A DNA stretch of 44,618 nt from NCBI GenBank assembly GCA_029860345.1, contig JAOUBJ010000011.1:128303-172920 (forward strand), written 5' to 3'. Source of the stretch: Candidatus Zixiibacteriota bacterium (GTDB lineage Bacteria > Zixibacteria > MSB-5A5 > GN15 > FEB-12). The notes under the pieces were generated by a model. That model saw nothing but the letters and a program-made list of their open reading frames with translations, was not told the DNA's origin and did not search any database. Below, in pieces: positions 7,028 to 26,500 of the stretch. Position 1 is the stretch's first letter. The number at the start of each line of letters is the position of its first letter. The position numbers and the translations under genes were made by a program.

Positions 7028-7102
7028 TACAGAGGATCGTACTCTGGCTCTGCCTGACGAGGTGACAAATGCGACCAGGAATAACAATAGGAGGACCAAG
7101 CG

Positions 7103-7345
7103 ATGGCAAAAAAGAAAGAAGCAACACCTTATACTGAAGAGCATGAGGTTGAAGGGCATGCTGTTCAAATCAGAAAAGAAGGGGATGTAGAACGGTTGCT
7201 GGTAGACGGCATTCCGCGGCGGTTCTTTATGCGAGGCGGTGGCTATGTGCTCTATGATAATGCCTACGCAACGCCCCAGAAAACCTTGCTGGCCGCGGTG
7301 AAAGAGCAATTACAGGGGACTACCGACAAAAGTGGATCGAATTAA
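7103..7345 (+). CDS. MelC1-like tyrosinase caddie (copper-loading partner)
   Basis: An 80-residue protein. Its second half, LLVDGIPRRFFM then GYVLYDNAYATPQKTLLAAV then LQG, lines up by eye with the end of Streptomyces MelC1. As I recall it, MelC1 there reads VDG, then LHVM, then a Tyr followed by a TP, then AARAAVDELQG. MelC1 binds apo-tyrosinase, helps load both copper ions and inserts a tyrosine into the active site. Tyr51 (or Tyr55) is the candidate counterpart. Unlike Streptomyces MelC1 there is no Tat or other signal peptide: the N-terminus is MAKKKEATPY. The gene has an AGGAGG site before its ATG, and its stop is 14 bases before the tyrosinase start, so the pair is one operon. The family call is by recalled motif pattern plus context, not by a computed alignment. 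Confidence 0.75.
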   Translation: MAKKKEATPYTEEHEVEGHAVQIRKEGDVERLLVDGIPRRFFMRGGGYVLYDNAYATPQKTLLAAVKEQLQGTTDKSGSN

Positions 7346-7359
7346 CGGAGGGATCAAAT

Positions 7360-10023
7360 ATGTACTGCCGACAGAATTTCATTGATGTTGCAAACGACAC
7401 TGACAAACTCGACCGATTAGCAGATGCACTGAATGAGCTTTATGATCGAGGTGTAATTGCAGAATTTGCCGATCAACACAATACGTTTTTCAACAATGGC
7501 ATTCACTGGGTGCCACAGTTTCTTCCATGGCACCGTCATTTCTTACTCAGGCTTGAACAGGAAATGCAGGCCATTGATTCGCGAATCAGTCTGCCTTTCT
7601 GGGATTGGACGAGAGCCGATGGCCGTTCACTTGAGGCCGATCCGTGGCTTTCATTCTTCGGCGGGCGTGCGAATTCGGGCGGGCGTTTTGATCACTGGGA
7701 TCTGGTCCGGACGCAACCGGAACCGACAACAAATACGCTACCAACCGTAGCCGAAATAAAAGAGGAACTGAGAAACAAGGCCAATTTCTTCGAGTATCGC
7801 GCCATTGAGTGCCAGAGTCATTTCCCGGGCCATACATGGACTGGCGGGACAATGGCCGGTGGTAGTTCACCAGCCGATCCTCTGTTCTATCTGCATCACT
7901 GTAACATCGATCGGCTGTGGGCCGTGTGGCAATTGAACAATCCCGGCGCCGAGCAGTATTCTACAGATCGGCGACCAAGCTGTGATAACACATCCATAGC
8001 GGCCGTGGCGCTCGGCGACCCGATGGTTGGAGGGGCTACACCGGAATCGATGCTGGTTCATACCGACCTTGGTTACCGCTATCCTCGTGACCTGGGTTTG
8101 GAGGTCGAAGTGGCCGGCGATTCTGACTTCGCGGGGTTCATATCAGGAGACCCCGTTGAGATCACACTTGCTACACCACAGATCATATTCAACGACGTAC
8201 CGGAAGGTGATACCACCAAACGCGCAGCGCTTTTTCAAATCACTGGGTGTGGATCGCTGTTATTCGAGGTAACCAATGGTCCAACCGGGTCGTTCTCACT
8301 TTTTGAACCAGGTCCATACCCTCACCCATCCGGGTCGTTCCCGACCGACGAACTTCGGATTTGGGTGATGTTCACCGGTGGTGCGCCCGACACCATCGAC
8401 CCGGGTGGAGTCATGTCTGTGGTTGCTCGGGACGATGACGGAAACGTCGTGGGAACTTTCAACGACATTCCCATTCTGGCAAACTCGGTGGCCCGCCCAT
8501 CCGTTGCGGTGGCGCTGATACTCGATGAATCAGGCAGCATGTTGTCGGACGCGGGCAACAACCGTACACGGATATCCGTACTCAGGGACGCAGCGACTAC
8601 TTTCGTGGATCAACTGTACGACGACAACGGTCTCACTCTGGTATCTTTTGCCAACAGTAGTGACAAACTGACCGATCTGCAGGTTGCAGGCTCACTTACA
8701 TCATCGGTTCGCAATGAAGCGCGAGGTGAGATTGCCTCTCATGGCCCACCCAATAATCAGCCGTTAACCTCGATTGGCTCCGGGCTTGAGGAAGCTGCCA
8801 ACATCTACGGTACATCATCTATCGCATCGGATTTCGATATCAAAGCATCGATAGTGTTCACCGATGGATACAATACAATAGCGCCGGACGTTGACGATGC
8901 TGCGGCGTTTATCAACGAACGAGTCTACGCCGTGGGCGTTGCCGACGCCGCCAACGTGAACAACGATACACTGTTCAAACTGGCCGACGACAGTGGTGGT
9001 TACACGCTCGTGACCGGTGCCATCGCCCAGGACGATGAGTTCTTGCTGGAGAAATTCTTCATTCAGATTCTGGCCGGAGTGATGAATCGCGACATCGTCA
9101 GCGATCCGGGTGGTTGGCTCACGGCCGGGCAGATAGCTCGTGTTCCTTTCCTGGTAACAAAGTCGGACATCGAGTTTGATGCTATCGCCTTGACGAGACA
9201 CCCGCACTACGTGGTTGTAGGCCTGGAAACACCGGATGGTACTATAATCGATGAATCTAAAGTACCGAGTGGCGCCTACCGGGCGGGAACCAACTCGAAC
9301 AGTTTCCGGATAGTCCTGCCGCTTGTGAACGAAGGTAAGGGCCACTGGGAAGGTAAGTGGAATCTGCTGCTGGCCCTGCGCTTCAAGCGGCGTGATGACG
9401 ATGTCAAGCGCCGTCATGCTGGTGCGATCTCATCGACACAATTCGGAGGTACGGCATCGTTGCCTTATGAGGCCTTAGTCCACACCAGGTCGAATCTTCG
9501 ACTCAGTGTGAACCTGGACCAAAGTGACATCACTCCCGGGTCGACGCTTCTGGTGCGAGCGGTGCTTTCGGAATACGGTCAGCCGCTTGAAACGCACTCC
9601 AAGGTAACAGCAACCGTAACGCGACCGGACAGAACCACTCAACAGCTATCTTTAGTCAGGTCAGCGCCCGGCGAATATGACACATCGGTAATCTCGTCGC
9701 AATCCGGTGTCTATCGGTTTCACATCAAAGCTAACGGTTTCTCCTCGCGCGGGCAGGCCTTTAGCCGAGAACACTTGCTTACAGCCGTTGTGGGACGTCC
9801 ATCCGAAAAACCAGCTACGCCGCCACGAGACTACAATGCGGCTATCATTTGTGAATTGATGAAGTGTTTGACAAGCAAGAAGGTGGTCAACGAGCATTTT
9901 ATACGCAAGCTGGAATCGATAGGCGTTGATTGGTTCCGACTACGAGACTGCATTGAGAAGTATTGCAGGGTCCATGATAAGAGTAGCCTGATTGACATTC
10001 TGAAGCGTTGTTCAAAAAAGTAG
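7360..10023 (+). CDS. Tyrosinase fused to a von Willebrand A domain
   Basis: An 887-residue multidomain protein. Residues 1-205 are a type 3 copper tyrosinase. The CuA site has His40 (likely), His49 and His58 in HWVPQFLPWHRHFLLRLE. The CuB site has His154 and His158 (HFPGH) and His179/180 in DPLFYLHHCNIDRLWAVWQ. Tyrosinases hydroxylate phenols and oxidise o-diphenols to quinones. Residues about 245-375 look like a beta-sandwich. Residues 381-590 are a vWA domain with an intact metal site (D389, S391 and S393 in DESGSM; T470; D502 in TDGYN). About 600-800 are further beta-sandwich, and a charged Cys-containing helical tail ends the protein. vWA domains bind proteins through a divalent metal. 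No signal peptide is visible. The start has GGAGGG 8 bases upstream. The preceding gene encodes its likely caddie. The substrate is unknown; protein-bound tyrosine is possible. Confidence 0.9.
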   Translation: MYCRQNFIDVANDTDKLDRLADALNELYDRGVIAEFADQHNTFFNNGIHWVPQFLPWHRHFLLRLEQEMQAIDSRISLPFWDWTRADGRSLEADPWLSFFGGRANSGGRFDHWDLVRTQPEPTTNTLPTVAEIKEELRNKANFFEYRAIECQSHFPGHTWTGGTMAGGSSPADPLFYLHHCNIDRLWAVWQLNNPGAEQYSTDRRPSCDNTSIAAVALGDPMVGGATPESMLVHTDLGYRYPRDLGLEVEVAGDSDFAGFISGDPVEITLATPQIIFNDVPEGDTTKRAALFQITGCGSLLFEVTNGPTGSFSLFEPGPYPHPSGSFPTDELRIWVMFTGGAPDTIDPGGVMSVVARDDDGNVVGTFNDIPILANSVARPSVAVALILDESGSMLSDAGNNRTRISVLRDAATTFVDQLYDDNGLTLVSFANSSDKLTDLQVAGSLTSSVRNEARGEIASHGPPNNQPLTSIGSGLEEAANIYGTSSIASDFDIKASIVFTDGYNTIAPDVDDAAAFINERVYAVGVADAANVNNDTLFKLADDSGGYTLVTGAIAQDDEFLLEKFFIQILAGVMNRDIVSDPGGWLTAGQIARVPFLVTKSDIEFDAIALTRHPHYVVVGLETPDGTIIDESKVPSGAYRAGTNSNSFRIVLPLVNEGKGHWEGKWNLLLALRFKRRDDDVKRRHAGAISSTQFGGTASLPYEALVHTRSNLRLSVNLDQSDITPGSTLLVRAVLSEYGQPLETHSKVTATVTRPDRTTQQLSLVRSAPGEYDTSVISSQSGVYRFHIKANGFSSRGQAFSREHLLTAVVGRPSEKPATPPRDYNAAIICELMKCLTSKKVVNEHFIRKLESIGVDWFRLRDCIEKYCRVHDKSSLIDILKRCSKK

Positions 10024-10028
10024 CGTGA

Positions 10029-10054
10029 ATGGACCAACAGCGAAGTCGGTCCAT
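10029..10054 (+). terminator. Hairpin after the tyrosinase gene
   Basis: Arms ATGGACC (10029-10035) and GGTCCAT (10048-10054), starting six bases after the stop codon. There is no T run, so termination by this element is uncertain. Confidence 0.35.
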
Positions 10055-10184
10055 GAAAGCAGTTCTTTCTTGTAGGTCGGGTCTCTCTTCTCTTGGAGAC
10101 CTGACAAAGTGTTCTGTGGGCGGTCTGTATTCAGGTAGGTCGAAAACCCTAGCCCGAAGGGTGAGAACCACGGCTTGACCGTGT

Positions 10185-10208
10185 CGTCCTGAGCGCAGTC
10201 GAAGGACG
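10185..10208. repeat. Constant-loop hairpin (GAGCGnAGTCGA family)
   Basis: Core GAGCGCAGTCGA at 10191-10202, flanked by perfectly pairing arms CGTCCT and AGGACG. Other copies with different arms are at 10489, 11965, 16257, 41820 and 42715. Confidence 0.6.
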
Positions 10209-10266
10209 GGTTTCGACATCTGCTGTCGCAAAGACAAAGCCAAAGAGTCACGCCATGCGCGTGATG

Positions 10267-10287
10267 TCGAAACCGCAGGGGTTTCGA
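10267..10287. repeat. Hairpin TCGAAACC / GGTTTCGA, copy 1
   Basis: Perfect 8-bp arms with a 5-base loop. The same arms recur at 41006-41026. Confidence 0.55.
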
Positions 10288-10307
10288 CCTACGGTGATGG
10301 AAAACTC

Positions 10308-10388
10308 GTCATTGTGGGGAAACGACGCGGCAATCTCATTGGGTAAGTGATTGAGATCGCCGCGCTCCGTACGGTCGCTGCCGATGAC
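10308..10388. repeat. CATTGCGAG family repeat, copy C
   Basis: Begins GTCATTGTGGGGAAACGACG, with internal GCAATCTCATTGGGT matched by GAGATCGC, and ends CCGATGAC. It is preceded by GACCTACGGTG as in copy B. Confidence 0.6.
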
Positions 10389-10395
10389 GAAGAAA

Positions 10396-10428
10396 GAGAA
10401 GATGGATTCCCGCCTACGCGGGAATGAC
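10396..10428 (+). repeat. Palindromic CGCGGGAATGAC repeat, copy 2
   Basis: GAGAAGATGGAT followed by the hairpin TCCCGCCTACGCGGGA and ATGAC. A second partial word GCGGGAATGACA follows at about 10439. Confidence 0.65.
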
Positions 10429-10488
10429 AGCGATGTGAGCGGGAATGACACCCCTGAATGGGGATTTCACGCTTCGCGCGTTGGCGAC

Positions 10489-10516
10489 TTCACCCCCTCG
10501 ACTCCGCTCGGGGTGA
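10489..10516. repeat. Constant-loop hairpin (GAGCGnAGTCGA family)
   Basis: Core in reverse orientation TCGACTCCGCTC (10498-10509). Arms TCACCCC and GGGGTGA pair fully apart from one extra C. Confidence 0.55.
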
Positions 10517-10641
10517 CAGGGCACTCCGATACTTGTAGTGGCTGAGTGACAAAGGGAGCGCGATTGACGTTCGCAGGTGAAAGAACCACTTCCCTCTCTG
10601 CTTCCACAATGCTATCTTGGGGCAGGCAGGAGGTTGTACTC

Positions 10642-11841
10642 ATGAAAAGATCAACAGCAGTAGTGAAGTGCGTCGTCAGTTGCGTCATCGCTATTGTCTC
10701 GATAGTTGCGGCGAGCACGTTCGGGAGCGAGGCAGATACTCACATCGGCGGCGAGTGCGATCAATACGTCGACTGGACATACGCTACCGGCGGGTGAGTC
10801 TTTGTTGCGCCCGCGGTCGCGGGTGACTTGGTCTATGTCGGATCGTGCGCCGGTGTCTTCTACGCTTTCGATGCGCTTACCGGCGGACTGAGCTGGAGCT
10901 TCGATGTGTCGGGCGATGGCGCCTACGAGTTTCACAGCAATCCGCTCATTCTCGACAGCGTGGTATACTTCGGGACCGATGAGGGCAAGAGCAGCAAACA
11001 GGGTTCGTTATATGCGTTGAATAGACTAAGCGGTGAGTTGCTCTGGAAACTGAATGTCGAAAACGGTGTCCCCTCAGACCCGGCAATTCTGGACAGTCTG
11101 ATATATGTAGTCAACTACGCAGGCATCCTGCTCGCCGTCAACCGAGCAACCGGTGTGACCGTCTGGGAGTTCGGCAGGGCACCGGTCGAGGAGGACAACT
11201 CGGTTTTGACAGACCTTCTGGGTGAGTCAAAACCAAAGAGGGGTCGGTCCAATCCTATGGTATTGGACAACTCGGTAATCTTCCACGGCAACCCTCAAAA
11301 ACTCTACGCGGTCGACGGTCAGTCGGGCCAAGAGATTTGGTCGCACAAACTGACAGATAAGATCAGCACTCAACTGATGCTGGTCGACAACCTCGTAGCG
11401 TATGGGACGGAATCGAAAAGCATCGTCTTTGTCAACAGTGTCGACGGGACGACCGTGCGCGTATCCACCCAGCCGCTGTCGCCAAGAAGCGCGATGAAAC
11501 TCCACGATGGTCGGCTGATCTATATGGGCTGTCTGGAAGAGAACGGGTCAAAGCGAGAGGTGGCGTCTATCGATCCTGACAATGGATCGGTTCACTGGAC
11601 AGCGTCAATGGATGGACTGGGTGAAACGAAAGGGTTTTGGTACAGCCCGCGGATTCATGTCTGGAAGGACAGGGTGATCCTCGGTACGTCCACAGGTTTG
11701 CTGGCGGGCTACAGTGTGTCGGATGGCGCGCTTGTTTTCAGTTGCCAGTTTGGTGGGCGTATCCGAGGCATAGGGAGCCACCGGGATATTCTATATGTAG
11801 GCACTTACGGCGGTAAGCTGTATGCAATGCGGTTGGAGTAG
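10642..11841 (+). pseudogene. Secreted PQQ-type beta-propeller protein with in-frame TGA
   Basis: A 400-codon frame from ATG 10642 (AGGAGG nine bases upstream) to the stop at 11839-11841 is interrupted once, by TGA at 10795-10797 after codon 51. The frame continues without shift on both sides. The N-terminus has a signal peptide (VVSCVIAIVSIVAASTFG). The rest is a series of PQQ-like blades: VYVGSCAGVFYAFDALTG, LYALNRLSGELLWK, LLAVNRATGVTVWE, LYAVDGQSGQEIWS, and a last strand ILYVGTYGGKLYAM. Such eight-bladed propellers include BamB and quinoprotein-like extracellular proteins; without catalytic residues this one is probably a binding scaffold. TGA may come from CGA (Arg) by one C-to-T change at a CpG, or from TGG. 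It is either a recent nonsense mutation, a sequence error or a recoded stop. No ATG restart is near; a TTG at 10828 is weak. Confidence 0.75.
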
Positions 11842-11864
11842 CAGGACGTCTGGGCTACGATAGT

Positions 11865-11900
11865 GAAGAAAAGATGGATTCCCGCCTTCGCGGGAATGAC
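11865..11900 (+). repeat. Palindromic CGCGGGAATGAC repeat, copy 3
   Basis: GAAGAAAAGATGGAT followed by the hairpin TCCCGCCTTCGCGGGA and ATGAC, 24 bases after the propeller gene. A partial second word (GCGGGAATGACA) follows. Confidence 0.65.
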
Positions 11901-11964
11901 AGAGGAGGCGCGGGAATGACAATGGCAAGGCAACAAATCGCTACTTCGCGCTATGCGCCGCGCC

Positions 11965-11988
11965 CGCCCTTCGACTGCGCTCAGGGTG
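11965..11988. repeat. Constant-loop hairpin (GAGCGnAGTCGA family)
   Basis: Core TCGACTGCGCTC at 11971-11982. Arms CGCCCT and AGGGTG pair with one G-T wobble. Confidence 0.55.
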
Positions 11989-12035
11989 ACGAGCGCCCCG
12001 CGAAACCTAGGGACACAGGGAGCGAAGCGCAAAAG

Positions 12036-12053
12036 ACAGGCTTGCCTGTTTTG
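12036..12053 (+). terminator. Terminator-like hairpin upstream of uvrB
   Basis: ACAGGC (12036-12041), TT, GCCTGT (12044-12049) and then TTT. The same arms form the terminator at 42627-42645. It insulates the uvrB promoter from upstream transcription. Confidence 0.55.
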
Positions 12054-12056
12054 TGA

Positions 12057-12084
12057 TTGCCGGGCAGAAACTTTTGGATATATT
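12057..12084 (+). promoter_or_regulatory. Candidate promoter of uvrB
   Basis: TTGCCG (12057-12062), 16 bases, TATATT (12079-12084), 26 bases upstream of the uvrB start. No LexA-type box was recognised. Confidence 0.5.
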
Positions 12085-12110
12085 GAGAGGTTGTACGTTT
12101 TACAAGGTGG

Positions 12111-14189
12111 ATGAGTCTGACTGATCAAATAAACCAGAAGCCCGAAATGGGTGACAAAACCGACGCGGCCGGCGCGTTTCAGTTGCAGTCGACCTTTGCC
12201 CCCAAAGGCGACCAGCCGCAGGCAATCGCCGAACTGATCGATGGTCTGAAAAGGGATCAGAAACACCAAACGCTGCTTGGCGTCACCGGCTCCGGCAAAA
12301 CATTCACGATTGCCAACGTGATAGCCCAGTGGGGCCGCCCTGCCCTGGTGCTGTCGCACAACAAGACACTGGCCGCGCAGCTTTTCGGTGAGCTTAAAGC
12401 CTTCTTCCCTAACAATGCAGTCGAGTTTTTTATCAGTTACTACGACTATTACCAACCGGAAGCATACATCCCAACCACCGACACTTTTATCGAGAAAGAC
12501 ACCTCGGTCAATGAAGATATCGACCGGCTGCGTCTGCGTGCGACAGCATCACTACTGGACCGGGAGGATGTTATAATCGTTGCTTCGGTATCGTGCATCT
12601 ATGGCCTCGGCTCTCCGGAAGAGTACAAACGCCAGTTTATGATGCTCGAAGTCGGCCGGGAATACGACCGTGATGAAGTTATCCGCAAGCTGATCGAGAT
12701 ACATTATAATCGTAACGATATCGATTTCAGTCGCGGCAATTTCCGTGTGCGCGGCGATACGATCGAACTGATCCCGGCCTACCATGAGAACGCTTACCGT
12801 ATCGAGTTCTTCGGTGATGACATCGAGAGAATCAGCGAGATCCACCCGCTGACCGGCGAGATTCTGGCTGATCGCAAAAAGCTGGCCGTCTATCCTGCCA
12901 AGCACTTTATCACCAGCCGCCCACAGCTTGATGTCGCTATCAAGCTGATCGAAGAGGAACTGGCTGTTCGTCTTGAACAGTTGCGGGCCAACAACTCGCT
13001 TTTGGAAGCACAGCGATTGGAGATGCGGACCCGATACGATCTGGAGATGCTCCGAGAGTTGGGATACTGCACGGGAATCGAGAACTACTCGCGGCATCTT
13101 ACCAACCGCAAAGAAGGTGAACGACCGTTCACACTTATAGACTTTCTGGGCGACGATTTCCTGACCATTATAGATGAGTCGCACCAATCGATTCCACAGG
13201 TGCGTGGGATGTTCCACGGTGACCGTAGTCGCAAGGAAGTTCTTGTTTCGCACGGATTCAGGTTGCCATCGGCTCTGGACAACCGGCCCTTGTACTTTGA
13301 GGAGTTCGAGAATCTGGTCAATCACAGAATCTATGTCAGCGCCACACCGGCCGACTACGAACTGGAAAAATGCGAAGGAGTTGTGGTCGAACAGGTGATA
13401 CGACCAACCGGCCTTTTGGACCCAATCGTAACGGTAAAGCCGCTGGCCACGCAGGTGGATGATCTGCTGGAACAGATCAAGCAACGTAAAGCCACCGGCG
13501 AACGAGTGCTCGTTACCACTTTGACCAAACGAATGTCTGAGGACTTGACCGATTATCTCAGCAAAGCCGGAGTGCGAGTGAGATACCTGCACTCGGAGGT
13601 TGCTTCGATCGATCGTACCGAGATAATTCGGGATCTGCGCTTGAAGGCGTTCGACGTGTTGATCGGCGTGAACCTATTGCGTGAAGGGCTCGATTTGCCG
13701 GAGGTATCGCTGGTGGCGATTCTGGATGCCGACAAAGAAGGCTTTCTGCGTTCGGCTCGGGCCTTGATACAAACAGCCGGCCGTGCGGCTCGCAACAAGA
13801 ACGGCGAGGTGATCTTCTACGCCGACAAGATCACCAACTCCATGCGCAAGGCTATAGATGAAACCGAACGTCGGCGCAAGAAGCAGCTTGGGTACAACCA
13901 GGAGCACAACATCCAGCCGGAGACGATTTTCAAGACGCGCGACGAAATCCTCCGGGCAACCCGGTTTGCCGACTCCAAAACAGTGGAAGAAGAGACGGTG
14001 GAAAAACCGTCGAATTTTGCCCAAATGGGAACCGAGGATCAGCTTGCGTTCATGATGACGGCGATGAAAAAGGCGGCCGACAACCTGGATTTTGAGACCG
14101 CTGTCCTGTTGAGAGATGAGATCACCCGTATAAAAGAAGAAATGAAAAAAAGCGCGGCAAAAAATGAGCCTCGCAGACTTGGTCCGTGA
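12111..14189 (+). CDS. uvrB: Excinuclease ABC subunit B
   Basis: A 692-residue protein and a full-length UvrB. The Walker A motif is GVTGSGKT (about residues 57-64). The beta-hairpin that clamps DNA has the invariant tyrosines in [13 protein letters not shown]. The helicase motifs [10 protein letters not shown] and [11 protein letters not shown] are present. The C-terminal UVR domain ([20 protein letters not shown]) contacts UvrC. UvrB verifies damage with UvrA and positions UvrC for dual incision in nucleotide excision repair. About 20 residues precede the usual family start; the ATG at 12111 has AAGGTGG immediately upstream. A terminator and a candidate promoter lie just before the gene. 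The next gene starts three bases after the stop, so it may be co-transcribed. Confidence 0.97.
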
Positions 14190-17306: not shown

Positions 17307-17402
17307 GTGATGCTTGAGAAACTAAGCTGGAGTACTACATTAGCTTACTACGAATTGTCACACGAATTGTGTAGGAGCTTAGCAAAAGAAAATGATGCGC
17401 TT

Positions 17403-17467
17403 CTTGGGGGCATGTCGCCCCAAGTGCAAATACAAGGTGGTTGTATATCCACGATCCCCTATCGTGG
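17403..17467 (+). promoter_or_regulatory. Two hairpins in the leader of the giant gene
   Basis: Hairpin 1: CTTGGGG (17403-17409) / CCCCAAG (17418-17424). Hairpin 2: CCACGAT (17449-17455) / ATCGTGG (17461-17467) with a 5-base loop. Both are perfect and lie between the promoter and the ribosome binding site. They match no riboswitch that I recognise. Confidence 0.4.
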
Positions 17468-17514
17468 ACGAGATCGCTCCATTGCGATTTCGTGAACTCT
17501 TTTGGAGGAATTCA

Positions 17515-20500
17515 ATGATACGATCGAGGTGTCAGAACATACTGTTCATAACGATCGGTTTGATCTTACTTGCACTGCCGGCCTTTGCCGGTGATGGAGC
17601 CCTTCCCTCTGTTGATGGCGGCACGCCTCCCGGCGGCAATGGTACGGCCGTCATGCCGACCAGTCTGGTGGCACAGTCCCACGGTCGACAGATCGGCGAT
17701 ACAGTTGTCATAGACGGAACCGGTTTTGACGCCGGTGAAACTGTCTCCATAAAGATATCCCACGGAGACAATCCCGCCAACACAGGGCCGGAGTACGACT
17801 CGTTTGAAATAACTGCCGCTCCGGACGGTACGGTAAGAGCGGATTGGGTGATCAGTAACCCTGAGACTGTCTGGCAACCGCTGCTGTTCACAGCTACCGG
17901 GGCCAGTTCCAGCCAGTCGGCCAGCACGCTGCTGTCTGAGATCGGTTCAAGGATCACAATCATATCCATACCTGAAGTCATTGTACGAGATTCCACATTC
18001 GAAGTATCGGTGTCGCTGGAAGAGGATTGCTGCGACAGTTGTATGACTCCCTTGCCGGGCCGATTGGTAGAGTTCTATATTCACGAGGAACCGTGCGGCG
18101 TACCTATCGGCGGCACCCCCGCAGCGACAGCCATCACTGATGCCAACGGCATCGCCACAGCCAGTTTGATTCACTATGATGTCGGAGAGTTTACTTTAGG
18201 CGTCAAGTATTGGGGCGAGGACCAGCCGACTGAACAGGAGCCGCCAAACTCTGCCTGTTTCCCTGAAGAGCGGGTGAAAATCCTGGCTTCGATTGACTGC
18301 ACCTATTTGGAGATTATCCACCATCCGGTTTTGATATCATGCCCACCCGGTCACCTGGGTGAGTTCTTTGTTTGTGCCGGTGAGACCGTTTGTATGCCCA
18401 CCGACTTGTTCCATGAAGGCGCGGGCGGGTTGGTGTTTTCGCTCAGCCCGGACAGTCCGGGTACAATCGATCCGGTGACCGGAGAAATCTGCCTGACCCC
18501 GGACACTTCAGGTATCTACGGTGTCCTGGTAATCGCCACCGACTCTATCGGCCAGACCGATGATTGCAACGCCGAATTTACAATTGAGATGAATAGCGCG
18601 CCTGCTGTTACCCTTGGCGATGACCTGCTGTTGGGTCCCTGCTATCCGCAACAGATTTGCCTCCCGGTGGATGTTCTGGATGTTGACCAGAACATTGTCA
18701 ACCTGTCTGCCAATATTGGAACGCTTGGTGAAGGCGAAGTCTGTATCGATATCGAAGAGGCCGGCGTGTACGAATTAATCGTTGAGGTGGTCGATGAATG
18801 CGGCGAGACCGACACCGACACGCTGGTTATCACGGCCGACCAGGGTGAGCTTCCATACGTTGACCTGGGCGAGGATTTCGACAGGTTCCTCTGCGGACCG
18901 GATCAGGTCTGTATCGATGTAAGTACTATAGAAGTCTATCAGTCTCTTACCACCAGTCTCGGCACCTTTGATTTGGAAACGGGTCAGGTTTGTGTCGATG
19001 TTAATCAAGACGGTTCTTATGAAGTGATTGTCGCGGTCACGGATACCTGTGGACAGACCGTGACCGACACGGTTGTCTTCAGTATTACCCTCAACCAGGC
19101 GCCCAGTGTAATCGCTTCGGCTGATACGACTGTATACCCTTGCTACCCCAAGTCGATTTGTTTGCCGGTTTCGATAGAGGATGCCGATGGGAATATTGTC
19201 GAAATCAGTTCAAGTCTTGGCACTGTCAGTGAGGGATCTCTCTGTCTCGACATCCCGCAGGCGGGATCATACGAAGTTATTATAGAGGCCACCGACGAGT
19301 GCGGCGAAACCGATGCCGACACCGTTGTCATAACCGCCGATCCCGGCGAGACACCCTTTGTAACTCTGCCGGACGATTTCGACACGCTGCTCTGCGGCGA
19401 CGAGACGATTTGTGTCGATGTCGCTACCATAGCCGGCTACGCTTCTGTGACGACCAGTCTTGGCACCTACGACCCGACCACCGGTCAGGTTTGCTTCACC
19501 CCCCAGAGCGCCGACCTGTATCGCCTGGTCGTCGAGGTCACCGACACTTGCGGCAACTCAGCCTCCGACGAGATCAACATTCGGGTCTCAATGAACAAGC
19601 CGCCGACGATATCGGCGGTGTCGGATACTTCTTTCTACCTCTGTTTCCCGCAAGCGATATGTCTGCCGGTGAACATCGATGACCCCGATAACAATATTGT
19701 CGGTGTTTCCACCAGCCTGGGCTATTACGATAACGGCCTGGTCTGTTTCACGCCGTATTCCAGCGGCACATACGAAATCGCTGTGACCGTTACCGACGAA
19801 TGTGGCGAAAGTGCCTCGACCACGATCAACCTGACCATCATGACCGATCAGGACATCGCTATCGAGTGTCCCAATGACACATCGTTGTCCGTATGCGTAA
19901 AAGACACCGTCTGCATACCACTGGCCGGGATACCCGAGTCTGAATATGTCACTGTCGATATATGGGGCCTTAACGCCTGGTATGATCAGGCTAATCACGC
20001 CGTTTGTTTCTATACCGAATGTTCCAACCAGAGCTCGATTGAGATCATGGTCAACACACCGTGCAGCACCTACACCTGCGAATTCGATGTCCAGGTGGAA
20101 TGCAATGTTGACCCGCTGGTGCTGCTGCCGCCTGATACTACCATGATGCTCTGCGACTCCGACAGCATCTGCCTGCCGGTCGGAATAAGCGACCCGAATA
20201 ACAATCTGGCCGAAATCTCGGTCGAGGGCGGCACGTATGATCCGACAACCGGACTCGTCTGTTTCTTTGCCGATACTGCCGGTACCTACAAAATCACGGT
20301 GATCGCCTTTGACGATTGCGGCGCCGAAGCCTGGGATATTGTCTACGTGACGGTCGACTTCAACTCGGCTCCCGTCTGCAACGTCCCCGCCGATACGAGC
20401 ATCTTCTACTGTGGCACCATGGATATTTCGCTGCCGGTGTCGGGCACGGACGTCGACGGTAATTTGACCGGCTGCACGATCAAGAGCGGCCCCGGACAGC

Positions 20501-23500
20501 TTGTCGACGGCCTGTGGACCTACACGCCAACCGGTGACGAGACTGTTACCGTAACCATAGAATGCACCGACGAGTGCGGCGCCGCTTGTGAGAGTTCATT
20601 CACCGTAAGTTTCGACAAAAACCAGCCGCCGGCGGTGGCCTGTGTTGATTTTCTCGAACCGGTTTTCGTCTGTGATCTGAATAACGAAATCTGTGTCAAT
20701 GGTTTCGGCGCAATCGACGAGGACGGTAACCTCGACACTATGTGGGTGACTGTCAACGGCGTCGATTACCCAGTCGTGGACAACGGCATCTGCTTCGTAC
20801 CGACCGAAGGCAGTAACAACATGATTCTGTACGCCGTTGACGATTGCGGCGATACCAGTTGGTGCGACGCTGTGGTCGAGGTTATTGTCAACAGTGCACC
20901 GACCTGCCTGCTGCCCGACGATACGACCCTGTTCATTTGTGACCAGGTGGAGCTATGTTTTGATCTGGTAGCGGAAGATATTGACGGCAACCTCTCAGGC
21001 TGGGAACTGATCTCCGGTCCCGGCGCTATCAACGGCGACCAGTGGTGCTACGATGCTACGACATCGGAAACTGTCACAGTGACGGTCCGTGGCTTGGATT
21101 CCTGCGGTGCCTATTGCGAAAAGACATTTACCGCAACTATCCAGGCCAACCGGGCGCCCGAGGTTGTTTGCCCGGAGTTCCCCGATCCGATATTCGTGTG
21201 TGATCTGTCCGAGATATGTCTGGACGGCTTTGTGGCGTCCGATCCCGATGGCAACCTGGATTCGGTGGTCGTGACTGTAAACGCTATAGTGGTACCCTCC
21301 GACCAGGGGCGGATTTGCTTCACTCCTCAGGAAGGACCGAACCACATCACGTTTTCCGCGCTCGATTCCTGTGGGGCGGTGTCCCGATGCGAGACAATGG
21401 TGGTGGTTGCGCTCAATAGCCAGCCTACATGCATTGTCCCCGATGATACGACAATCTTCCTGTGTGATCTGACCGAGATCACACTACCGGTCACCGCCGC
21501 CGACATCGACGGCAACCTGGTCGCTTGCACGATTGTTGACGGACCCGGTCAGATTGTGAACGGTATGTGGACCTACACACCCGGCGGTGATGAGACTGTT
21601 ACCGTGACCGTACAATGCACCGACGAATGCGGCGCTACTTGCGAGAGTTCGTTCACTGTCGATTTCTCACTGAACAAGCCGCCGGTCGTCGCTTGCGGAG
21701 ATTTCTTTGAACCTATGTTCCTCTGCGAACTTGAGGAAATCTGTCTCAACGCTTTCGGAGCCATCGATCCCGACGACAACCTTGAATCGGTGTGGGTCAC
21801 TGTTAACGGTGCCGATTATCCGGTGGTTGAAGGCAGTATCTGCTTTGTGCCGGTCGAAGGCACCAACCTGATGACCCTGTACGCGGTCGATGCTTGTGGC
21901 GACACCTCCGCTTGTGGCACTTCGGTTGACATCGTGTTGAATACGGCGCCGACCTGCCTGATGCCCACCGACACCACTCTTTGGAATTGCGGACCGGTGC
22001 AACTCTGTCTACCGTTGATGGCCGAAGATACCGATGGTAACTTCTCTGGTTGGGAGTTGATCTCAGGTCCCGGCAGCATTGTCGATAGTTCCTGGTGCTA
22101 CACTCCTCAGGGTACGGAAACCGTCAGCGTTGTCGCTCGCGCTCTTGACTCATGCGGCGCCTATTGTGACCAGACGTTTTCGGTAACATTCGACCTCAAT
22201 TCGCCGCCTGAGTTAACGTGTCCCGATGACACTACAATAGCTGCCTGTAACAACAGCGTGATCTGCATCGGTGATTTCCTAGTCGTCGACCCTGATGACA
22301 ACCTGGAGACGGTCACGGCCACCCTCAACGGCCAGCCGATTACCATGACCGGCGCGACTATCTGTTTCACACCGATAGACGGCGACAACGTATTATCGGT
22401 CACGGCCATCGATGCCTGTGGCGCCGAGGCCAGTTGCGAAACAAATGTTACTGTCAACATCAACGAGCCTCCTGTCTGTTATCCGCCAAATGACACGGCT
22501 ATTGCTCTTTGTGAACCTGAAGAAATCTGTCTTCCGGTATCGGCGTTCGATCCTGACGGCAATTTCGATCATTGCGAAGTAGTCTCCGGAGTTGGGGAAA
22601 TCGTCGACGGCTATTGGTGTTTCACGCCCGACAAAGCGATCGGCGGAGTGATCACGATTCGTTGCTTCGATAGTTGCGGCGCTTACTGTGAGACCGAGTT
22701 TACGGTTGATATCGAACTTAACGAACCACCGATTATATATGACCGCGGGATTGCAGCGGCTTTGTGCGAGATTGGCCAGGTCCGTGAAGTAGGCGCTATC
22801 GGCTTCGATCCCGACGGTGACCCGTTGACCTTCATCCTGCTTGATGGACCGGGTACTATAAACTCAGAGACCGGCTTGATCACCTATTACCCCGACACTT
22901 CCGGCGTCTACACATTTGAGGTGGCCGCCTACGACACTTGCGCGGGCGATACCGGTTTCGTCTGGGATACTATCAGTATCAACACGCCGCCAGAACTGAT
23001 CACATTTGATTCCACCATTCAGGTGTGCGGCATTGCCCAGGAAATCTGTTTCGACGTTATCGGCAGCGATCCTGATGGTGATGTGATCACAATTACTCAG
23101 GAATCCGGCCCGGGCGTCTTTACGATTCTAACCGACAGTTCCGGGCAGACTTGTTTTATGCCTGAAGATGTCGACAGCGCCACTTACGTCTTCACCTATT
23201 GTGTAACCGATCCTTGTACCGGTGCGAAAATCACCAGCGAGATCTGTCCCGAGTGTCCGCCCTGCATACCGGACACTATCAGGATTACGGTGCTGCGCAA
23301 TCGCCCCCCGGTGGTCGTATGTCCCGACCCGCAGCGGTTCTCCATCTGTGAACCGGAGACGCTCTGTTTCGATTTCAACCCCGGCGATCCGGAACTACAG
23401 CAACTGTCGGTGAACATTCTTTCCGGCAACGCCGTCTATGACAACGGCAGCATCTGTTTCGACGCCGTAGGTTCCGATCAGTTCGATATCGTTATAGAAG

Positions 23501-26500
23501 TTGTCGATGATTGCGATGCCAGCGACACCTGTATAGTCCCGGTGACAATCGAAGGCAACTATGCACCGGTCGTTTCATCGGCCGATGATTTCGAGAAGTT
23601 CCTGTGTGAGCCGTCGGAGATTTGTTTCGATGTTGCCGTCTCGGATATTGATCAGGACATTGCTACGATTACCACCAGTTTCGGAACGTACAATCCGGAT
23701 ACCGATCAACTCTGTTTCTACGCCGACACCGCCGGCAGCTACATCATCATCGTAACAGCGACAGATTCCTGCGGAGCTTCAACGTCTGATACGACTACAG
23801 TAACGGTGGAATTGAACGAGGCGCCCTATGTCGACGCCGGTGACGATTTCGAAATCGGTCTGTGCGGACTCACCCAGGTTTGTTTCGACCTGACTGTTGG
23901 TGACCCCGATGGTAACCTGGTCACGATCCTTTCGAGTATGGGTACGTATGATCCGCTAACCGGCCAAGTCTGTTTCGATGTCGAGTACGACGGTACCTAC
24001 GAACTTATTATTGAAGCTACCGATGAATGCGACGTGACGGCCGTCGACACTGTCCATGTGACGGTAACGTCCGGCGCCCCGCCATTTGTCGATCTGGGCG
24101 CCGACTTAGACCTCGGCCAATGTGAGCCGCGCGAAGTTTGTGTTGATGTCAATACGATTGACGTTTTCCAGTCGCTGACCACGACCCTTGGCGTCTATAA
24201 CGAAACTACATCGCAAATCTGTTTTACCCCGGAAGGCGGCGGCGAGTACACTATGATCGTCACTGTGGTGGACTCCTGCGATCAAATGGCTGCGGACACA
24301 GTTAACATTTTGGTCGGCACCAACCGTCCGCCCATCGCCACCGGCATGCCGGACAGCACGGTCTACCTGTGCTATCCGCAGACCATCTGTCTGCCGATTG
24401 AAATCTCCGATCCCGACGGCAACATTCAGAGTATTAATGTGACCGGCGGTTCCTACAACGACGGCCAGGTCTGTTTCACACCATACGATAGCGGCACTTT
24501 CGAGATTATCGCCACGGTCACCGACAGTTGCGGTGAGACCGATGCCGACACCGCCTATGTTACGATCCGGACCGATCAGGGCATCCAGATTGTATGCCCC
24601 AACGATACTACCATATTCACCTGCGTGGGTGACACATTCTGTCTGCCCATCGGCGGGATTCCGGAAATTGCGGAAGTTAACGTGACGGGGATCAACACCT
24701 GGTTTGACGAGGAACTGCAAAGCATCTGCTTCTACTCCGAGTGTGGCAATACCAACAACGTAACCGTCGAGGTCACCACGCCGTGCGGCAGTCACAGTTG
24801 CAGCTTTACGGTAGTAATCGAGTGCAACCACGATCCGCTGGTGCTGCTGCCGCCGGACACGACTATGATGTTCTGTGGATCATCGGAGGTCTGTGTGCCG
24901 GTGGGTGTCTACGATCCGGACGGCAACCTGGTCGACGTAACCGTCGAAGGCGGACTGTACGATCCGCTTCACGGTCAGGTCTGCTTCAACGCCGACACCG
25001 CCGGTGAGTATACCATCGTTGTAACCGCCATAGATGAGTGCGGCGAGTTGGATTCCGATTCGATCAACGTTACCATTGAGTTCAACACGCCGCCGGTCAT
25101 AATCTACGAATGGGCCGACAGTGTTATAGCCACCTGCGTTCCCGAAGTCTGTGTGCCGATTTCGTTCGGTGATGCCGAGGACAACCTGGTGGAAGTATTG
25201 ACTGATGTTGGCTACTATGACGAATCTACCGGCGAGATCTGTTTCGTTGCCGAAACTTCCGGCCAGTACTGTGTCAGTGTTATTGCTATCGATGACTGCG
25301 ACCTGGCTGATACGCTCAACGCCTGTGTGACCGTCGACATCGGTGAGTACGTACAGATCACCTGTCCCGAAGATACCGTGCAAGCCGAGCCGATCTGCGG
25401 CCCTGAAACTGTTTGCGTGCCGCTTGATATCATCGGCAACAACTACACGATCACAACATCATTCGGCAGCTACGCAGAAGGTGAACTGTGCTTCCAGGCC
25501 GACACTGCGGGAATCTATGAGATTACCGTCATCGGTACGGCCGACTGTAACAGCGATACCTGCGACATTCTGGTGAAGGTCATTATTCCGGATGAAGCAA
25601 CGATCGCCTGTCCGGCCGATACCGCGCAGCTATTCTGCGGTCCCGATACACTGTGCTTTGACTTTACCGTATCGGCCGCCACGACCAGCGTGGCTGTCTC
25701 GGAACCGGCCTATTTGAGTGAAGGCATGGTCTGCGTACCGGTTCTCGAACCGGGTACGATAGAGGTTACGATGATTGCATCGTCCAACTGCAACGCCGAC
25801 ACCTGCGCTTTCACGGTAACGGCAACCTTCAACAGCCCGCCGTCGGTCGTGACAGGTCCCGACACTACCCTGACGGTGTGCGAACCTTATGAGGTTTGTA
25901 TTCCGTTCACCGCCGACGACCCGGATGATAATATCATAGAGATTTCATCCACGCACGGTGACATTATCGACAACGAAGTCTGCTTCACCCCGGACGGTTT
26001 CGGTATTCATGAGGTCATCGTCTCGGTGCGTGATGCTTGCGGTGAAGCTGCCTACGATACTACTTTCGTGAATGTCCTGTCGGGCGGGTCACCGCTGATC
26101 GTCTGTCCGCCGACTACGGTGTTTGACACCCTTTGTGGTCCGGACTCAATTTGCATCACCATGCCGATCAGTCCTGCCAACGCGGAAGTTACGATCTCGC
26201 CCAATGGTTCATACAATCCCCAAACCGGCGCAATATGTGTTTATATCGACCAGACCGGTCTGTATAGCATCATGGTCACGGCCGAGGCTCAGTGTGGCAT
26301 TGATACCTGCGTCTTCGATCTTGACGTACAGATTCCCGAGGCGCCGGTGGTATCTTGTCCTTCGAATGTCGATACGCTGCTCTGCCTGACCGAGCCGGTG
26401 GAACTTTGCTACCCGGTCTCGGCAACCGGGACCGATATCACTATTTCCGTGTCTTCGCCGGCTGTCTACTCAAACGGCCAGGTCTGTCTGCCGATTGAAG

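Follow-up and report, generated by a model that had tools for sequence, protein, structure and literature searches.

The tyrosinase–vWA locus

What does a tyrosinase gain from being built into one chain with a von Willebrand factor A (vWA) domain? The question is raised by a forward-strand gene at positions 7360–10023 of a 44,618-nucleotide stretch of DNA from a Candidatus Zixiibacteriota bacterium (assembly GCA_029860345.1, contig JAOUBJ010000011.1, positions 128,303 to 172,920; hereafter the window). Its 887-residue product was proposed in a first-pass annotation to belong, with a small caddie protein encoded beside it, to a possible new copper-oxidase system. The system is not specific to tyrosinases: the tyrosinase is one of several heads found on a shared C-terminal unit, here called the chassis, that also carries peptidases and other oxidases.

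The gene is supported by its open reading frame (ORF), Pfam matches, an AlphaFold2 (AF2) model and homologues. It is preceded by a strong GGAGGG ribosome-binding site (7347–7352, forward strand) and begins after a gap of 14 bp from the caddie gene. The length of the open frame, six aligned copper ligands and full-length homologues in other phyla with 53–61% identity argue that the ORF is not a product of chance. Its N-terminal head (about residues 1–245; 7360–8094, forward strand) matches the Pfam Tyrosinase family PF00264 at 1.9e-29, with 104 bits against a cut-off of 22.6, and the ORF is the sole PF00264 match in the 4.76-Mb genome. Against the NCBIfam MelC2 equivalog the protein scores 111.5 bits, where the cut-off is 450. 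Alignment with MelC2 shows that the six copper-ligand histidines are all kept, H40, H49 and H58 for CuA and H154, H158 and H180 for CuB. The AF2 model, made from 12 homologues (mean pLDDT 72.9), matched the tyrosinase structures 1wx2_A (TMt 0.68) and 6j2u_B (E 3.5e-10) in Foldseek searches, along with the vWA structure 4fx5 (E 1.2e-12). The Streptomyces tyrosinases matched by the model come from structures solved together with caddies. Ligand conservation and the fold match thus predict a complete dinuclear type 3 copper site in the head, in agreement with the first-pass annotation.

In bacterial tyrosinases, an Asn directly after the first CuB histidine (the HisB1+1 position) is associated with monophenolase activity. 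The MelC2 alignment places F155 here in the window enzyme, and across the seven-member clade of window-type enzymes the position holds Phe, Val, Ala or Gly and never Asn. This suggests that oxidation of diphenols or aminophenols is favored over hydroxylation of tyrosine.

A conserved chassis under the head

The remainder of the protein is homologous over its whole length to proteins with other heads, which indicates that residues ~267–875 (residues 267–875 as mapped, 8158–9984, forward strand) are one conserved unit. It is composed, in order, of a beta domain, the vWA domain, a second beta domain, an Ig-like domain and a helical tail that contains cysteines. The vWA domain (8503–9081, forward strand) matches VWA_2, PF13519, at 3.2e-6, above the family cut-off. 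The residues of its metal ion–dependent adhesion site (MIDAS), D389/S391/S393, T470 and D502, are invariant in 44 of 44 aligned chassis rows, and the intact MIDAS described earlier is thereby confirmed. An Ig-like or YtkA-like beta-sandwich spans residues ~700–812 (9457–9795, forward strand), as judged from a weak YtkA match, a profile match and strands in the AF2 model; the chassis profile matches filamin-type Ig domains. The Ig-like regions had been viewed as additions to the enzyme; they are present, but together with the vWA domain they form a single conserved unit and not a set of loose appendages. The C-terminal helical tail (9832–10017, forward strand), defined from the AF2 model and the alignment, includes two widely kept cysteines, C836 (35/44 rows) and C864 (38/44). 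This conservation suggests a disulfide and, with it, a possible extracellular life.

A search for the same domain order in other genomes was productive. In a plasmid search, a full-length homologue was found in Microvirga ossetica (53% identity over 98%) and one covering 80% in Haloarcula, while a Caballeronia protein had only the C-terminal two thirds in common. A search of genome contigs with the single protein gave no match, and the family was found only with a four-row alignment of the shared part as the query. The window protein scores 770.6 bits over positions 1–608 of the resulting chassis profile, which has ~610 positions and was trained on 21 rows that include the window itself. Full-length chassis proteins occur in Planctomycetota, Bacillota, Pseudomonadota, Acidobacteriota, Bacteroidota, Actinomycetota, Thermodesulfobacteriota, Myxococcota, haloarchaea and a Bathyarchaeota metagenome-assembled genome (MAG), for a span of at least 10 phyla with the window's own counted.

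Occurrence of the chassis is rare and patchy. Counting the genome at the center of each search and a few partial or weak matches, the chassis was found in 1/132 genomes of the window's phylum (single-protein search), 1/398 Pseudomonadota, 3/297 Acidobacteriota, 3/246 Planctomycetota, 7/299 in one actinomycete order and 5/249 in the Paraburkholderia family. The single-protein search gave no second full-length fusion among the 132 genomes of the window's phylum, and the searches of phages and viral contigs gave no match.

Unrelated enzymes exchanged on the chassis

Six recognizable kinds of enzyme head are found on the chassis: tyrosinase, M14 carboxypeptidase, S8 subtilase, M64 peptidase, LodA quinoprotein and lysyl oxidase. 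Representatives were assigned with Pfam (M14, 1.1e-35; S8, 8e-37 and 5e-48; M64, 5e-32 and 1e-34; lysyl oxidase, 6.6e-23; tyrosinase, 4e-26 and 2e-38; LodA_N, 7.5e-63, and LodA_C, 1.2e-22), and for the remaining members the head type was judged from sequence similarity and from catalytic motifs in the translations, with no separate profile search. The Caballeronia protein, for example, has an M14-type carboxypeptidase head in place of the tyrosinase, a type confirmed with Pfam on its relative L032. The same chassis is found at the LodA loci L099–L102 and L108. A further head type, an N-terminal part with no Pfam match, is found at loci L025 (8551–11848, the Bathyarchaeota MAG) and L028 (8572–11932, a Phycisphaerales MAG), each with a coupled upstream partner of ~152 aa.

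Heads have been swapped repeatedly. Mapping the head types onto the chassis tree takes 12 changes over 44 rows, where the minimum is 6; with the longest branches removed (35 rows) it still takes 11, again with a minimum of 6. The starred branches of the tree force at least three changes for M14, at least three for S8 and two for tyrosinase. In the approximately unbiased (AU) test, a single clade was rejected for M14 (p-AU 1.5e-56) and S8 (0.0012), and the result for tyrosinase as one clade was borderline (0.040). The most telling example, an acidobacterial locus (L027), does not depend on a tree. Its genes run in the order S8-chassis, M14-type partner, M14-chassis (7218–14023). The chassis share 76% identity over 610 residues and the heads show no relationship (best BLAST E 2.9), which makes this a natural head-swap pair. 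Cellulomonas has the same order of S8 then M14, with the second chassis truncated. On these comparisons of sequence, the chassis is a mobile module under interchangeable heads. The head catalogue and the trees rule out a vWA domain that hitch-hiked within one lineage.

Several loci stand at the edge of the family. A trypsin-like sequence with a vWA domain, L103, was left uncounted as it matches only part of the chassis profile. At L036 (12343–14349) and L047 (12083–14275), M14-chassis copies end inside the chassis; by inspection, the genes after the L036 copy encode an apparent sigma factor, then a subtilase and a CHAT-like protein. At L111 (115–2841), the protein encoded 109 bp upstream of a LodA-chassis gene has 908 aa, a weak (62-bit) match to the chassis and an N-terminal part of no assigned type; a 641-aa LodA-like ORF lies downstream.

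A caddie-fold partner and the partners of other heads

The gene directly upstream of the tyrosinase (7103–7345, forward strand; ribosome-binding site GGAGG at 7090–7094, forward strand) encodes 80 aa and was annotated as a caddie. The AF2 model (pLDDT 80.7), Foldseek and homologues found directly upstream of relatives all support this assignment. In Foldseek, ranks 1–21 are all Streptomyces caddies at probability 1.00, with TMt up to 0.71; the best E-value is a modest 1.7e-3 since the protein is small. Sequence searches with the ORF gave 0 matches in Pfam and NCBIfam (up to E 1) or the Protein Data Bank, and its homologues had none up to E 5, with the MelC1 family PF06236 not matched. The caddie label thus stands for fold and upstream position and fails for membership in the MelC1 sequence family; the ORF is best modeled as a divergent caddie outside that family. 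Its Y55 lines up with Tyr98, the active-site tyrosine of MelC1, and the caddie tyrosine is known to reach into the copper site (PMC11608171). By hydropathy, no twin-arginine translocation (Tat) signal peptide is seen at its N terminus, MAKKKEATPYTEE, where the best 12-mer scores 0.77 compared with 1.65 for S. clavuligerus MelC1. From its sequence, the window caddie is not expected to supply the Tat export that MelC1 gives. The Microvirga and Haloarcula homologues each have a small ORF directly upstream, and the caddie-like ORFs of window-type tyrosinases are about 70–90 aa, or 66 aa in Haloarcula.

Partners follow heads, and most heads have their own coupled small partner. In the case of M14, this is a protein of roughly 100–140 aa with a conserved C-terminal motif whose gene overlaps or abuts the enzyme start. 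The M64 partner, of 144–164 aa, is alike in three loci and overlaps the enzyme gene. A LodB-like oxidoreductase of the flavin adenine dinucleotide type overlaps downstream of LodA in L113. The S8 heads have a long, propeptide-like N-terminal extension in the same chain (inspection only).

Location and neighborhood

A crude hydropathy test of 33 main proteins of the family gave no evident signal peptide or membrane segment. Two distant surface relatives from the window's phylum, L005 and L006, have a clear signal peptide and a membrane anchor. Around the chassis loci there are no conserved neighbors besides the head-specific partners, and with no shared neighbors a conserved secretion or toxin island finds no support. 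A known defense system was rejected: PADLOC gave 0 matches for the window proteins and elsewhere a generic subtilase match only, with no system. A misassembled or contaminant contig was excluded by flanking housekeeping genes (uvrB, a BamA-type Omp85, LpxD, SMC and an SRP54/FtsY-type GTPase) and by agreeing base composition.

Two other genes of the window were recorded. Downstream of the tyrosinase, an ORF with a provisional TTG start and no obvious signal peptide (10828–11841) encodes a PQQ/BamB-type beta-propeller. Farther on, 17392–28374 encodes a 3660-aa surface-type protein with Ig, cadherin and PKD repeats that ends in a Por secretion-type sorting domain.

Relation to known systems

The locus resembles the MelC1/MelC2 pair of Streptomyces (architecture I; PMC9454253) in its upstream caddie-fold gene, six-His site and tyrosine at the plug position. 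It differs in a caddie that sequence models do not recognize, that has no Tat signal and that does not keep H82/M84/H97, and in the ~610-aa vWA chassis. The zymogen tyrosinases (architecture II; PMC9454253) share with it the order of a catalytic head followed by a beta-rich C-terminal extension, but in the window this extension is a ~610-aa chassis common to unrelated enzymes, and a separate caddie is encoded. The first-pass annotation knew of no characterized tyrosinase with a vWA module, which is consistent with a review of bacterial tyrosinases that recognizes three architectures, none with vWA (PMC9454253), and another in which vWA is not mentioned (PMC11608171).

A precedent with a vWA part comes from quinoproteins. 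A survey of LodA-like proteins reported a pfam13519/vWA match in two actinobacterial members (Amycolatopsis vancoresmycina and Cryptosporangium arvum) and called for experiments (PMC4417212). These join an oxidase to a vWA part as in the window; that survey goes no further than pfam13519 in LodA and does not describe the wider chassis, its remaining heads or a version with tyrosinase. The open-access literature yielded no paper on the shared chassis or on head swapping, with subscription literature outside the search and novelty therefore provisional. The family looks like an undescribed, mix-and-match group of probably targeted, latent enzymes.

Other designs share parts of this layout. Caddie-type tyrosinases on plasmids of Methylobacter and Streptomyces sp. 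NBC_00868 have the same order of small caddie-like ORF, head and C-terminal binding-type module, with a propeller instead of the vWA chassis and a fucose-lectin match in the Methylobacter protein. Since these related enzymes bear a lectin-type propeller, a binding-type module behind a caddie-tyrosinase head appears to be a recurrent design. Loci L119 (1248–3243) and L120 (1218–3312) pair a caddie-like ORF with a tyrosinase that ends in a propeller of repeats. The propeller of L120 is fucose-lectin-like (5.5e-15), and the repeats of the Methylobacter propeller are near-identical copies. A relative of the window organism (L014, 6960–9578) encodes, in one protein of 873 aa, a tyrosinase and a galactose-oxidase-like region of kelch and E-set type, a possible two-copper-enzyme chain, with a second tyrosinase of 282 aa ~0.6 kb downstream. 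Among vWA surface proteins, the pilus adhesin SpaC, the LapA vWA, the inter-alpha-inhibitor heavy chain and mussel byssus PTMP1 all have a MIDAS-type vWA, several with beta-sandwich companions; unlike the window protein, they lack an enzyme head and use ordinary signals for secretion or anchoring. Polymorphic toxin and effector systems likewise combine interchangeable enzymatic domains with a constant module and an adjoining partner gene. In the chassis family, however, the constant part is C-terminal, the partners are maturation or latency factors, and no secretion genes are nearby.

Proposed function and alternatives

We propose, at about an even chance, that the two genes form an operon encoding a latent, targeted oxidase; the architecture and modularity are established from sequence and fold, and its target, export and reaction are what we infer. 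The caddie would help with copper loading and plug the active site with Tyr55, leaving the enzyme inactive in the producing cell. The complex could then exit by a route that does not use a signal peptide, or work after cell lysis. The MIDAS–vWA chassis may anchor the enzyme to a specific protein or cell surface, where, on release of the caddie, the copper head would oxidize phenols (o-diphenols, o-aminophenols or exposed tyrosines), and the resulting quinones would cross-link or damage the target. By analogy, members whose head is a peptidase or a lysine oxidase might work in the same way, mostly guarded by a partner of their own. Caddie latency is established for Streptomyces (PMC9454253), and in the window the fold, position and plug tyrosine of the partner suggest that it applies by analogy. 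Targeting is suggested by MIDAS invariance and by a chassis common to enzymes that mostly act on proteins. The earlier idea that the vWA domain brings the enzyme to a protein partner receives indirect support in the same way, as lysyl oxidase and peptidases from three Pfam families sit on this chassis and its MIDAS is invariant. The best reading is presumably one of latent enzymes for proteins or amino acids, brought to their target by the vWA chassis.

Several observations weigh against parts of this proposal. The positions of MelC1 H82, M84 and H97, which are those mutated in the caddie structures retrieved, are R, F and A in the window caddie, and in the Microvirga relative Phe replaces the plug tyrosine. 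The tyrosinase heads of L033, L039 and L042, from other clades, have no obvious caddie. Conversion of tyrosine to 3,4-dihydroxyphenylalanine (DOPA) by window-type enzymes is not assured, to judge from the HisB1+1 residue. No secretion-system gene and no gene that points to a substrate is conserved beside the chassis loci, and without a signal peptide an intracellular role fits too. The namesake LodA oxidizes free lysine, and the LodA heads thus weaken a protein substrate as the sole reading.

Some of these same features fit other explanations. An ordinary oxidase of small phenols, of a melanin-like or o-aminophenol kind, in which the chassis only stabilizes, oligomerizes or stores the enzyme and the vWA domain does no targeting, would agree with the lack of Asn at HisB1+1, with nearest characterized folds that include the o-aminophenol oxidase 9t62 and MelC2 and with the use of small phenols by free MelC2-type enzymes. 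We consider it unlikely, given that the same chassis bears peptidases and lysyl oxidase, which have no small phenol substrates in common, and that a MIDAS invariant in all 44 rows is unlike a mere spacer. That none of the 33 members tested has an evident signal peptide or membrane segment, in contrast to L005 and L006, would suit a cytosolic complex whose vWA chassis docks to a cellular protein complex for regulated modification or processing. The conserved pair of tail cysteines, and the signal peptide and anchor of L005 and L006, point to extracellular ancestry, and a copper oxidase and broad proteases would be dangerous in the cytosol; an intracellular enzyme therefore seems very improbable.

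A weapon released by contact or lysis, with polymorphic heads (proteases and oxidases that make H2O2 or quinones), a delivery chassis and partners that protect the producer, is decidedly unlikely, even though heads swap on a constant C-terminal module and a protective-type partner is coupled to them. It would also fit the patchy distribution, carriage on plasmids and LodA-like oxidases reported to be antimicrobial (PMC4699246). Against it, no secretion-system or defense gene is conserved alongside and PADLOC finds no system, while N-terminal heads on a constant C-terminal part reverse the layout of most polymorphic toxins, and caddies and propeptides are maturation factors and not typical immunity proteins.

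Generalized from the latent, targeted oxidase of the window, the family might form a hitherto unrecognized cross-domain system, a tentative view to which we give somewhat less than an even chance. An adhesive vWA chassis would carry one of six or more latent enzymes (tyrosinase, lysyl oxidase, LodA, M14, S8 or M64), most equipped with a safety factor of their own in cis or in trans, and would bring the chosen chemistry to a single kind of surface or protein target.

Implications

What looked like an isolated, odd fusion becomes a family whose rule can be tested: the constant chassis would set the destination of the enzyme, and the head its chemistry. The family has genetically accessible carriers in Paenibacillus ehimensis, Paraburkholderia, Caballeronia and Dyadobacter, which could show what these predicted copper oxidases and proteases without signal peptides do. 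The unannotated M14 and M64 partners are candidates for new families of inhibitors or propeptides. If the proposal is true, the MIDAS chassis would be a natural targeting module that tolerates unrelated heads, useful for engineered cross-linking or processing of proteins.

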